A stretch of 64,000 nt of DNA from Spinacia oleracea (taxonomy: Eukaryota > Streptophyta > Magnoliopsida > Caryophyllales > Amaranthaceae). The stretch lies in assembly GCF_020520425.1 (NCBI RefSeq), contig NC_079490.1, positions 6,262,001 through 6,326,000 on the forward strand, written 5' to 3'. Position numbers and translations under genes: made by a program. How positions within the stretch are numbered: position 1 is the stretch's first letter; every line of letters starts with the position of its first letter. The notes under the pieces were generated by a model that did no database searches, was not told the DNA's origin, and saw nothing but the letters and a program-made list of their open reading frames with translations. Below are positions 15,482 to 63,976 of the stretch, in pieces.

Positions 15482-17086
15482 CTCCTTCCGTCTCTTTTTG
15501 TTTTTTACGTTTTTCTTTTTGGGTATTTTAAAATGTTTTTTATATTTCCTTTTATATTGCGGATTTTTCATGAAATACCCCCGAATTTTAGCTTAATTCA
15601 CCAAATGCCCTCGACTTTCAGAAATTCATAAAATACCCCTATTCCAATGCTTAATGTACCAAATATCCCTAGTGACGTCATCAACCTCATAATCTACCAA
15701 TTAACGTCTAATTAACCCCCAAATCAGCCCACCCATTAACAAATCTAATTAACTTATCCCCATTAACCCATTAACCCACCCATTTCTTTTTCTATTTCTC
15801 TCTCCCCTTCCTCCTTCCATTAACCCACTACCTTATTGCAACCACCACCCTGCAACCACCACCCTTTCATTCACCTTCAGCGTCGTCTTCTTCCTCTTTC
15901 TCTCTCCCTAATCCTAAATTCAAACCCCAATTACACAATTCCTCTACACAAACCCCCCCCCCCCCTAATTGATTCTTTTTCCCCAAATTATACCCTCCAA
16001 TTTACTCATCCCTTTCTCTCTCCTACGAATCACCATCTTCAACCTTCTCTTGGGGTGCCAACTCGCACAAACTGTCTCCATCAGTTCATTTCTTAACTAA
16101 AACCAGCAACCTCAATAATCAAATCCTCATTTGTAATTTAGGGTTTTGAAACCCCAAAAATTGTTGATGTCAAAAATGGTGGTTAAAAAGAAGCAATTGA
16201 AGCCGGAAAGACAACCCCTCAAAACCCTTAATCATATTTTTGGAAAGAATAGGAAAAATTCTTCAATTTAACTCTTCGTTCTTTTCTGGGTTCCATTTAA
16301 TTTAATGGGTGTTCTTCAATTCATGTTTCTAATGTAGCTTATTGCTTATTGTCCTTTGTTTGAATTTTTTTTTTCTGGAAATAATTTAGTTTTTGTTATC
16401 TGGATTTTTTTGAATGGAAGAGCAGTTGAAGGAGACTAGGAGAGTTGTTAGTTTTAGTTTCGTTGTTGAAGAAGAAGAGTACAACGGTAATGGTGGTTGT
16501 TGATAATGGGTTTCAATGACAGCAGTAAGATGGGGAGGAAAGGAAGGGAAGGAAGGAAAAAATTGGTGGGTTGGTGGGTTATTGAAATGGTGAGTTAGGG
16601 GTTAATGGGTGGGTTGATTAAGGGGTTAATTAGGGGTTATTTTGTTTATTAAGTGTTAATCGGGTTAATTAGGGATGATGACGTCATCACGGGGTATTTG
16701 GTACATTAAGTATTGAAATAGGGGTATTTTATGAATTTCTGAAAGTCGAGGGGCATTTGATGAATTACGCCAAAATTCGGGGGTATTTCATGAAAAATCC
16801 GTTTATATTATCACATAAATAACTTAGTATTCTATCAAAATTTGTGTCCAATTATTATTTTAACCAATCAAATTCATTGGGTCATTTAATCTCTCACACT
16901 TTTCCATTGGGACATTAAATTTTTCTCATTTCCCAATATCAGAATTTTGATAAAGGTGAAAACATTATAAATAAACGTAATTTATCTCGTTTAAATAATA
17001 AAAATTGAGGGATTTCAATGCAAATTAATTATTCGTTAAAACGCGTGAAAAATACCAAACGTAAAAAAAAAAAAAGACGGAGGGAG
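15482..17086. mobile_element. Stowaway MITE containing a nested Mutator-like element
   Basis: Ends ctccttccgtctctttttg and its counterpart aaaaagacggagggag are flanked by TA (15480-15481, 17087-17088). Without the insert it matches the 328-bp Stowaway at 24090-24417 in reverse orientation (shared gataatataaag / accaatcaaat blocks). The MULE at 15560-16801 sits inside it. Confidence 0.85.
15560..16801. mobile_element. Mutator-like element with long terminal inverted repeats (copy A)
   Basis: The termini begin cggatttttcatgaaata on both strands, and the inverted repeats stay similar for about 130 bp (aaatgcccctcgactttcag, gatgacgtcatca). tttatattg/tttatatta (9 bp, one mismatch) flank it, and the empty site is seen in the Stowaway at 24090-24417. 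The inside has low-complexity CT-rich DNA and a short frame MVVKKKQLKPERQPLKTLNH (about 16171) that could be a captured exon, not identified. No transposase, so it moves, if at all, by help from elsewhere. Confidence 0.85.
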
Positions 17087-24417: not shown

Positions 24418-25118
24418 TACTAGTTTGTATCCGTACTATTGCATAAAATATTTATTTTTTTTCCAAATGCTCTTGATAGAAAATATAAAGATAAATTTTG
24501 TGACTTTTTCTATTATACCGCACAATATCAATTGAGTTTTTCAAAAAGTCATTGAAGAAATTATTGTTTTTTTCCAATCGAAATTAATCTACCGTATAAA
24601 TAATTCAAGCAATTGTAAACGGACAACATGGTTGATTTTATACGTTCCAAAAGAAATAATTAAATCAAGATTATGTTATTGTTACGTTATTGAAATCTGG
24701 TACAATTTCAATTATAGTATTCGATAAAACTACCAAACCAGAAAAACAATAAAATTAAAAACGGATATTTCATGAAATACCCCCGAGTTTTGAAGTAATT
24801 CACCAAATGCTCATCAAGTTCCAATAATTCACCAAATACCCCTGACAATTGACTTAATGTCCCAAATACCCTTACTTTTAACGGTCCGTTAGTCCGCCGT
24901 TAGCCAAGTTTCATAATTCACCAAATACCCCTATTATTAAACTTATTTCACCAAATGCCCCAAACTTAAAAATAGTTATTCTGATGTTCCAACGACTAGT
25001 TTTTTCGTTTGAAAAGTAGCTGTTGATCTTGCTTGGCTATAAAAACCCACTTTCTGAATGTTTCTTGTAATTTAGATATTGTTTTTCTTTGCTTTGCTAA
25101 TTGCATTAGATTTGTGTC

Positions 25119-25320
25119 ATGAGTTTTGTTTCCAAATCATCATCCTCACACAATGAGTCCACATATATTAGAGTACCTAACCAATTTTGCTATTGTGATA
25201 GGAAATTTGTCATCTGAAGCTCCGATACAACACTCAATCCACAAAGGTTGTACTACAAGTGTGATCCTTGCAACAATCTGAGATGGTGCAAGGGAGTAGT
25301 TGAGCAAGAAAACAGGGGGC
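25119..25320 (+). pseudogene. GRF-type zinc-finger-like fragment inside the Pack-MULE
   Basis: The plus strand reads MSFVSKSSSSHNESTYIRVP then FCYCDRKFVI, one in-frame stop, and NPQRLYYKCDPCNNLRW. The C-x-C ... NP-x-R-x-(Y/F) ... C-x2-C ... (F/L)RW layout is that of plant GRF zinc fingers, which are often carried in transposon-amplified genes. The usual Gly after C-x-C is Asp. A promoter-like tataaaa lies at about 25038, just inside the terminal repeat. Confidence 0.5.
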
Positions 25321-25544
25321 AACAGCATGAAGGACAATACAGGGGAAGCTTAGACGAAGGAGAAAGTACTGAAAATAGGGGAAATAGTAAGATGCAATAG
25401 GACTTGAAGCAAATGAAGAAAAGGCTGGTACTGTAATGTCAATACAAGGCATCTTACTTTGATTTTGAAATGAAGAAAGGCTAATCCTATTTATGTCATG
25501 GTTTGGGATGGACAGGCAGAACTTAGGACTCAGGAGAGCAAGCA

Positions 25545-25860
25545 AGTACTTTTAGCAAAGAAAAGTTAAGACTTCAGAGAACTCTTAGCAAAGCAATTGG
25601 GAGGCAAACAACATGTGAAAGAAGTCCGAGGGCAGGGTCTTATTATTGGTATAGAGTTGGATGTACAAGTTGGCCCGCTAGTTGATGCTTATCGAAATGC
25701 AGGAATGTTAAATTGTTAATATTAACTGCTGGAAAAGGAAAATAGTGAAATTGGTTCCTCCACTGACCATATTAGAACAGGAGCTCGAAACAGGTTCTGA
25801 GATTCTCCTCGAGTGTTTCCCGTCCCTAGGTTGAAGCAGTGGAGTTGAATTTGTGTACGA
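25545..25860 (+). pseudogene. Captured C-terminus of acetylornithine aminotransferase
   Basis: The reading frame gives [12 protein letters not shown] then [18 protein letters not shown] and [13 protein letters not shown]. After a one-base shift near 25720-25740 it continues IVKLVPPLTILEQELETGSE and LLECFPSLG, then stops. This is the C-terminal small domain of plastid acetylornithine aminotransferase (ArgD/WIN1 type, arginine synthesis), recognisable by VRGxGLIIGxELD, LTAGKGNxVRxVPPL and the terminal SEILLECLP. The PLP-binding lysine and the large domain are not present. It is a frameshifted fragment taken up by the transposon; the parent gene must be elsewhere. Confidence 0.85.
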
Positions 25861-26699
25861 TGAGTCGATGCTTGTCAAATTTCCTTGTGACATCAATAGA
25901 TCCAAAGCTCATAATTGGCATCGTAGCTGTAAATCAGGAATAAGTTTCCTACTAGCTTCTCTTTGGATTATGCCTTGAGTTTAATGTACAAATTGTCATT
26001 TCAAGATATCCCACTCGTTAATCAGAACATTGATCTTCTTTGTTGCTTGGATTCATTTCATAAGTATCTTTCTTCCTTATTATAAGGCTTAGTTTGTTAT
26101 TTTGATACCTATAAATTGTGTAGCTTTGTATTGAATGGAACACACAATCAACATTATTATTTTCTCTTCGTACTACAATGTTTGTTCAAAATTAGCCTTT
26201 AGATATTATCACTGGCATAAGCCAACAATAAGCAACGACTAATTTTCAAACGAAAAAACTAGACGTTGGAACATCAGAATAACTATTTTTAAGGTTGGGG
26301 CATTTGGTGAAATAAGTTTAATAATAGGGGTATTTGGTGAAATAAATTTTTAAAAAAGGGGCATTTGGTGAATTATGAAACTAGGCTAACGGCGGACTAA
26401 CGGACCGTTATCAGTAAGGGTATTTGGGGCATTAAGTCAATTGTCAGGGGTATTTGGTGAATTATTGGAACTTGATGGGCATTTGGTGAATTACTTCAAA
26501 ACTCGGGGGTATTTCATGAAATATCCGAATTAAAAAGGGAGAAATTAATAATCAGTTAGATGTATGTTAATTCAATTTAAAACGACGAATATTTCACAAA
26601 AACTTTGAAAACTTACCGATTAATCGACGGAAGAATATTGGAATTTGGAGTTTTTTTTTGGGACTAGGAATTGGAGTTTGGAATTGGGGGAACACAAAT

Positions 26700-54810: not shown

Positions 54811-54819
54811 TAAAATAAT

Positions 54820-56226
54820 CGAATTTTTCATGAAATACCCCTGAATTTTTGCAAAATTCACCAAATGCCCCTCGACTTTCAGAAATTCACCAAATGCCCT
54901 TCACTTTTTTAACAAATACACCAGATACCCTTATTTATGAACTTAATGCACAAGATGCCCTCAATGACAATTTTCCGTTAGCTCCGTTAACTTTTCCGTT
55001 AAGTTTCTCCTTAACTAAACTAATTAACTCCTAATTAACCTAATTAACTATTTAAAAAAAAAAAAAATTTCCAACCCAAAGTAGGAGGATTGTCTTGAAA
55101 GTCAAAACTGTAAACATAGTTCAAGCTTGAAGCTTTCACCTTTGTCTTCCCCAGCACCACAAACCAGTTAGATTAGACTAACCCCCTCACTCATTCTCTT
55201 TCTCTCTCCTTTTTCCTCTTTTCTTTGCCTCCATTTTCTTGAACCCTTTAACTATGAATCTATGATCAACCCCTTGAATTTAATTCAACACTTATTCCAG
55301 AAGAAAAAATGTTCTTCAAACCCCACCTTACCATACTCTTCTTCCTTTTCTCTTTATCTCACCTCCTCACCTCGGTTTCATCATGGAAAAAAGACGAGTT
55401 TCACAATTGTAATCAAACCCAATTTTGCAATCGACCTCACTCTCGAAAACCCAATTCATGCTTGTTAATCTCCACCGATATTGGAATCTCTGACAGCAAT
55501 CTTGTTGCGAAGTTGATCTCCAAAACCCCACCTCAAACTAATCAAGTTTCTACGAATTCTTTGAATTCTTCGAATCAGGAAGATGGGGTTGAAGATCTTG
55601 TTCAAAAACCCTTGATTTTCTTTATCAATTGGTTACTGGTTAGATTAAAAATTAGGGATTGATCGAAGAATGGAATACCCAAGTAGGCAATTAATTGATC
55701 TTCAGATTTCAATGGTGAGGAGAAGAGGAAGAATGAAGGGGGGAGGAGAGAGATTGAGCGGCGACGAATGGAAGGGCGCGCCAGCGGGTGGTGGTAAAGG
55801 CAGTTGGCAGGGGCTCGTAGAGGTGGTGGTGGTGAAGATAAGAGGAGAGAGGAATAAGGGGTAGTGAAGGGGAGGAAGAGAGAGAAAGGGGATGACCATG
55901 ATGGTGAGCTACCATGGCTGCCATGGTTTCATCTGGGAGTAAGAATGGAAGATGGTGAGAACAAAACATAAGGGGAAAAAATAAAGGAAAATAAGTTTTT
56001 TTTTGACTTTTTATTTTTAAATTTAATTAGGTTAATTAGATAAATATGGATTAATAGAGTTTAATTAGGGTAAAGTTGACGAAAATCTAACGGAATTGAC
56101 AGAAAATACTCATTAAGGGTATCCGGTGTATTTATTAAAAAGTGGAGGGCATTTGGTGAATTTCTGAAAGTCGAGGGGCATTTGGTGAATTTTTTTAAAA
56201 TTCAAGAGTATTTCATGAAAAATCCG
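54820..56226. mobile_element. Pack-MULE (copy C, 1,407 bp) carrying the start of ER glucosidase II alpha
   Basis: Ends cgaatttttcatgaaatacc and, read inwards from the right, cggatttttcatgaaatact. The inverted repeats share aaatgcccctcgactttcag and about 180 bp more. A perfect 9-bp duplication taaaataat flanks it (54811-54819, 56227-56235). Same family as copies A (15560) and B (24762). The inside contains CT-rich leader DNA, an open frame for a secreted-protein N-terminus (55309-55662), and G-rich DNA of unknown source (55670-55960). No transposase. Confidence 0.92.
55309..55662 (+). CDS. Captured N-terminus of glucosidase II alpha subunit (117 aa)
   Basis: The frame opens MFFKPHLTILFFLFSLSHLL, a signal peptide (hydrophobic core ~8-25), then SSWKKDEFHNCNQTQFCNRP, HSRKPNSCLLIS, ISDSNLVAKLISK and VQKPLI...VRLKIRD. 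Plant ER glucosidase II alpha (RSW3 type, N-glycan trimming) starts with the same pattern: signal peptide, SWKKxEFRxCxQTPFCKRAR, SRxPGxCSLI, ISDGxLxAKL and KPLILxLSxYxxGxVRLKIDE. The copy stops where the parent protein goes on for about 800 more residues, so the catalytic domain is absent. The frame is intact from ATG to stop, with a CT-rich leader upstream. It could encode a short secreted or ER peptide; expression is unknown. Confidence 0.75.
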   Translation: MFFKPHLTILFFLFSLSHLLTSVSSWKKDEFHNCNQTQFCNRPHSRKPNSCLLISTDIGISDSNLVAKLISKTPPQTNQVSTNSLNSSNQEDGVEDLVQKPLIFFINWLLVRLKIRD

Positions 56227-56235
56227 TAAAATAAT

Positions 56236-56588: not shown

Positions 56589-63976
<7,388 letters not shown>

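Follow-up and report, generated by a model that had tools for sequence, protein, structure and literature searches.

How does the start of an endoplasmic reticulum (ER) glucosidase gene come to lie, still open to translation, inside a small mobile element of spinach, and is the resulting frame of any use to the plant? The question is raised by one element in the window, the whole 64,000-nucleotide stretch that was analysed (C4:6262001-6326000), and it was pursued through searches of the genome (894.2 Mb in 242 contigs). The account that follows, which very probably holds as a whole, is that of a multi-gene Pack-MULE that captured part of the glucosidase II alpha gene, was spread by a transposase, and carries an unselected, drifting frame.

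The Element and Its Boundaries

The span marked out by an earlier sequence-only reading, 54811-56235, is exactly the element (54820-56226) together with both 9-bp copies of its target site. The features of the window that matter here are as follows:

15560-16801, unstranded: sister element with the same ends and other cargo; flanks agree at 8/9 positions
24762-26527, unstranded: sister element with the same ends, present at 40 or more genomic sites; flanks agree at 9/9 positions
54811-54819, unstranded: left target-site duplication, TAAAATAAT, 9/9 identical to the right copy
54820-56226, plus strand: non-autonomous Mutator-like element (Pack-MULE), 1407 bp, defined by its ends and target-site copies
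54820-54933, plus strand: left terminal inverted repeat, ~114 bp, 91% identical to the right end when inverted
55078-55619, plus strand: captured glucosidase II alpha piece, ~215 bp from before the ATG and the first ~101 codons (~305 coding bases)
55262-55468, plus strand: 68-aa upstream frame overlapping the start of the 117-aa frame; its donor counterpart has 8 aa and stops before the ATG
55309-55662, plus strand: open 117-aa frame with a signal-peptide-like start, a glucosidase II alpha N-terminal segment, and 14 foreign residues
55641-55745, minus strand: captured antisense piece, 90% identical to the 3' part of an NDUF_B12 (NDUFB3-type) gene at C3:53.625 Mb
56114-56226, minus strand: right terminal inverted repeat, ~113 bp, pairing with the left end
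56227-56235, unstranded: right target-site duplication, TAAAATAAT, directly outside the element

The element begins CGAATTTTTCATGAAATAC, and its terminus is the near-inverse of that sequence. The inverted repeats (~113 bp) have 91-92% identity, and further inward the two ends still match, more weakly and with the register shifted (74% over 192 columns). The longest frame is the one of 117 aa, and the element is without a transposase frame of its own. Parts of the same cargo are found in six other elements elsewhere in the genome. As the sequence-only reading had proposed, this is a Pack-MULE carrying fragments of host genes: its ends, its 9-bp target duplication, host fragments with known donors, its copies, and transposase-bearing relatives with the same ends all show it. 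The insertion lies in the 5' flank of a frame with a UPF0176_N domain (56589-57158), which has the same orientation as the element and whose ATG is 363 bp further downstream.

The Glucosidase II Alpha Donor

A GH31 family search and a search of the genome with the 117-aa frame converge on a single locus, at C4 ~10.150-10.158 Mb on the minus strand. One 570-codon open frame there runs from a signal-peptide-like start into a GH31 barrel. The first exon, 541 codons long if the GT that follows it is taken as its end, has Pfam matches to PF13802 and PF01055 that start at residues 102 and 374. Of its best 10 PDB matches, eight carry the name neutral alpha-glucosidase AB and two the name "alpha glucosidase-like protein." On its GH31 domains and closest solved relatives, the donor is identified as a glucosidase II alpha gene; this enzyme goes by the names RSW3/PSL5 in Arabidopsis and neutral alpha-glucosidase AB in animals.

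Direct alignment with the species' own glucosidase II alpha gene, the test by which the sequence-only reading was prepared to fall, found the homology: 55078-55619 matches C4:10157857-10157333 on the minus strand at 86.4% over 545 columns (E 8e-166, among 14 fetched loci). In the frame search, the 117-aa frame matches the same gene at 81% (E 5.7e-48). Of the claim that the first exon had been taken up, the glucosidase II alpha origin stands, but the whole exon was not captured, only the ~215 bp before the ATG and the ~305 coding bases. The frame itself, 55309-55662, is open as described, and its hydrophobic stretch resembles the donor's, making a signal-peptide-like start plausible. Its final 14 residues, FFINWLLVRLKIRD, do not come from the glucosidase gene and arise from fusion. 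Neither PDB nor Pfam gave a match with the 117-aa frame as query; the link to glucosidase rests on the DNA and the donor.

Copies of the Element and the Rest of the Cargo

The frame search of the genome, with 13/13 candidates scored, led to eight places: the donor and seven elements.

E1: the window element
E2: C4:16.83 Mb, target duplication 9/9
E3: C3:36.77 Mb, target duplication 9/9
E4: C1:119.80 Mb, target duplication 9/9
E5: C5:90.90 Mb, target duplication 10/10; deletions and stops break the frame
E6 (L035): C4:129.00 Mb, target duplication 9/9; much of the captured coding part inverted
E7: C1:58.23 Mb, target duplication 8/9; most of the glucosidase piece lost

The target sites differ among E1-E7. 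The four young copies, E1-E4, differ pairwise by 0.36-1.56% (98.4-99.6% alike), and their presence at four sites with different target duplications indicates that the element has transposed with its cargo. A search of the genome with the whole span found, besides the window element, three near-full-length copies, at 98.6-99%, and many partial relatives. The inverted coding part of E6 is an unusual internal rearrangement. An eighth element (L038) retains only 57-62 bp of the pre-ATG DNA, and its flanks agree at 6/9 positions, which is no clear duplication. A locus at C3:95.548 Mb (L042/L052), which has in common the stretch behind the glucosidase piece (81-84%), was considered as a further carrier and rejected: it has no glucosidase match, and a high-copy repeat takes its place.

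The cargo has more than one source. The NDUFB3-type donor of the antisense piece has a frame that matches PF08122 (E 4.4e-11), and the older copy E5 holds the same NDUF_B12 3' part, also antisense, over 101 bp at 92%. Behind the glucosidase piece E5 is longer than E1. Its extra stretch matches C4:153.92 Mb in two segments, of 83 bp (87%) and 24 bp (96%), and the NDUF_B12 piece then follows. The match at C4:153.92 Mb lies ~0.9 kb upstream of the first recognisable Peptidase_M17 (leucine aminopeptidase) stretch. An internal deletion common to E1-E4 removed this aminopeptidase-side piece. Since the NDUF_B12 stretch is in part, together with the DNA that follows it, also present in L053-L057, it may predate the glucosidase capture. 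No element ends were found in the 9.5 kb fetched around the glucosidase II alpha donor, nor in the stretches fetched around the NDUF_B12 and aminopeptidase-side donors.

Transposase-Bearing Relatives and Sister Elements

The end pattern of the family occurs 3,370 times in the genome with up to 2 mismatches (1703 + 1667), and the reversed-pattern control occurs 0 times. Long loci for fetching were chosen among the end matches listed (100 places) and comprised six ~5-kb pairs (L043-L048) and one 3.2-kb pair (L049). The six, at C1:20.79, C1:118.20, C2:8.87, C3:30.11, C3:140.79, and C3:143.56 Mb, have 9/9 target duplications and long frames and are 97.5-99.2% alike to L044. The sole one scanned for domains, L048, has the MuDR DNA-binding (PF03108), MULE (PF10551), and SWIM domains, and its outer 86 bp are 93% identical to the ends of the window element. 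Because these ends are common to both, we infer that the transposase of a ~5-kb relative of this type would move the window element. The six are likely a young, transposase-bearing MULE lineage. The 3.2-kb locus (C3:4.325 Mb) has nested ends, two in each direction, with no long frame and no 9/9 target duplication. A search of the genome for MULE transposase domains covered the best 150 of 1960 candidates.

The idea that this family regularly captures genes, drawn by the sequence-only reading from elements that differ inside their ends, is upheld for three of the five cargo types (glucosidase/NDUFB3-type, TYW3, and C5:4.34 Mb), for which a donor was found, and not for L050 and 24762-26527, for which none was. 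Donors may have been missed, because only the best 40 candidates were scored in each donor search. For example, the sister element at 15560-16801 has two stretches 88-90% alike to C5:4.341 Mb (L066; best 40 of 341 candidates), and no frame that can be named was found over the matching stretch of that donor. The subfamily of L051 has ten full-length matches at 99-100%, itself included (best 40 of 50 candidates), and carries a piece of a TYW3 (wybutosine synthesis) gene from C6:3.93 Mb. The matching stretches are 401 bp (88%) and 51 bp (92%), and the 289 bp that separate them in the donor frame are missing. One copy of the L051 subfamily stands 11.5 kb before the window. Some sequence of the sister element at 24762-26527 recurs in the right-hand portion of the autonomous relative; all 40/40 places scored were copies, and no donor was found among them (best 40 of 962 candidates). 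The subfamily of L050 has 11 matches at 99-100%, itself included, and no donor among the best 40 of 44 candidates; L068 was rejected as one, as it bears an element end itself.

Decay of the Copies and Small RNAs

Of 520 aligned bases, 52 differ between the donor and E1. From the donor to E1 there are 30 C>T/G>A changes compared to 8 in reverse, and C>T changes hit CG sites (11/42) more often than CHH sites (16/162; P = 0.0096). The same comparison gives 34 to 8 in E5, 12 to 4 and 15 to 3 in parts of E6, 5 to 0 in E7, and 5 to 1 in the NDUF_B12 piece. The excess is absent from the 15560-16801 element (7 to 6) and from the aminopeptidase-side piece (4 to 3). The decay, strongest at CG, hints that the copies were methylated in the past; methylated copies free of selection would be expected to look like this. 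Internal methylation of rice MULEs is reported to rise with age in one study (PMC4858842).

Small RNAs from such copies could tune the glucosidase II alpha gene or, as the sequence-only reading had also suggested, silence it. The cargo of the window copy has a 33-bp stretch before the ATG identical to the donor, with 13 identical 21-mers in all, and the CG-weighted decay suggests methylated copies. In maize, elements including Pack-MULEs are described as giving siRNA from captured sequences in a 2026 review (PMC13317346). However, at 86% identity the cargo offers few perfect matches, and the plain decay of unselected DNA can also give a C>T excess. Silencing of the parent through these copies is very improbable.

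Is the Frame Under Selection?

The sequence-only reading took the open frame to be meaningful and looked to the alignment with the parent gene for signs of selection. Over 98 codons, E1 differs from the donor by 11 silent and 15 replacement changes (n=26). The dN/dS is 0.37 (bootstrap 0.16-0.93), a value drawn from 26 changes only, with low power, and one that may mislead here because the changes are mostly C>T and G>A. In a neutral test matched to this spectrum, the same types of change were dropped randomly on matching donor sites, with all 26 assigned to the element branch. It expected 17.9 replacements (sd 2.1) compared to the 15 seen (P = 0.13, again with the low power of 26 changes), and in the GC>AT subset 11.0 compared to the 10 seen (P = 0.39). 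The frame remained open in 29% of the neutral trials.

The copies tell of the frame's later course. Positions that vary among E1-E4 make up 5/354 sites in the frame and 24/1057 columns outside it (P = 0.39), and all 5 of those within the frame alter a residue or the ATG. The ATG is kept in three of the four young copies and is TTG in E2, and the frame is broken in all three of the older copies, E5-E7. Between E1 and E5 there are 2 silent and 5 replacement changes (the alignment is off at the start codon). The young copies have two indels within their captured coding stretch, and both preserve the frame; together with a dN/dS below 1, they make weak or past selection possible.

The region ahead of the frame is also altered. 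Within 250 bp upstream of C4:10157637 (minus strand), the donor (L029) has three short frames, of 4, 3, and 8 aa, all of which terminate ahead of its ATG. In E1-E4 the stop of the third is lost, and this frame, now 68 codons long and in a different register from the 117-aa frame, reads through the latter's start; its length in E5 is 37 codons. Such an overlapping upstream frame would hinder translation of the 117-aa frame. Its start context presumably is weak and that of the main frame fair, so that by leaky scanning some ribosomes could still arrive at the main ATG.

One could consider the frame a young gene, in which the captured pre-ATG DNA drives a transcript for a short peptide, secreted or retained in the ER. 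The open frame with its hydrophobic start like the donor's, the start codon retained in 3/4 young copies, the ~215 bp taken from ahead of the donor ATG, and the dN/dS point estimate would all suit this. It is set against a spectrum-matched test at P = 0.13, an ATG already lost in one young copy, three older copies disrupted in one way or another (deletions and stops, an inversion, a large deletion), an upstream frame of 68 aa over the ATG, and neutral trials of which 29% leave the frame open. The captured codons also stop where the donor's first Pfam match starts (residue 102). A young gene is very unlikely on these grounds. Likewise very unlikely is the reading in which the family spreads a portable secretion leader, a mobile cassette of donor upstream DNA, start codon, and signal peptide. 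If that were true, transcripts of the cassette could make new ER-targeted chimeric proteins, and so could insertions ahead of a gene, for example of the one here whose ATG is 363 bp downstream. That the glucosidase piece is instead a pseudogene into which a MULE was inserted has next to no chance of being right: no point in its favour was found, parts of the piece lie between inverted ends in 7/7 elements at different places, all seven have target-site duplications 8-10 bases long at their flanks, and the pieces include DNA from before the ATG.

The changes in the frame fit neutrality, and the 117-aa frame is best regarded as a probably unselected, drifting passenger, with the failed start in one young copy, the broken older copies, the overlapping upstream frame, and the neutral test all counting against a meaning for it. 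We infer that no useful peptide is made from it.

A Proposed History

In the history that these data suggest, an ancestral element would have copied the 5' end of the host glucosidase II alpha gene between its ends. DNA from two or more further loci would have lain beside that copy. Then, through the transposase supplied by an autonomous relative of ~5 kb that has the same ends, the element would have moved and multiplied, reaching at least seven places. E1-E4 would descend from one element that had lost an internal stretch, so that its glucosidase codons ran on into foreign DNA. From that internally deleted ancestor the 117-aa frame would have been inherited, and it would now be drifting.

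Gene capture in a plant can be followed cleanly at this locus: a single assembly holds the donors, copies graded from older to younger, and a relative that bears the transposase. The locus also shows that a striking open frame, signal peptide included, can be no more than a passenger; here the internal deletion, foreign tail, overlapping upstream frame, and C>T decay can all be read directly. With its 3,370 ends, the family would suit the study of gene capture by MULEs.

Comparison with Known Systems

In the open-access literature, no study of Pack-MULEs or Mutator-like elements in spinach was found, and no related study that pairs glucosidase II with Mutator-like elements. The element's link to glucosidase II alpha consists of the donor gene and the first part of the 117-aa frame. 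It differs in that its share of the gene is confined to the pre-ATG DNA, the start resembling a signal peptide, and one N-terminal segment; the captured codons end short of the enzyme's PF13802 and PF01055 matches (from residues 102 and 374). Autonomous MuDR/MULE elements have ends and a target duplication like those of the window element, which is 1.4 kb rather than 5 kb long and without a MuDR/MULE/SWIM frame.

The closest likeness is to the Pack-MULEs of rice, maize, Arabidopsis, and tomato, which are likewise non-autonomous Mutator-like elements with long inverted ends and fragments of host genes. In both the known Pack-MULEs and the window element, the target duplications are AT-rich and of 9-10 bp. 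For example, a report on a tomato Pack-MULE family (PMC3310237) describes 13 copies with tandem ends and one with single ends, with one gene fragment carried. What differs from the known cases is the donors, which here are glucosidase II alpha and an NDUFB3-type gene, with aminopeptidase-adjacent DNA in older copies as well. The features match those of published Pack-MULEs, and this is an ordinary, typical case of gene-fragment capture.
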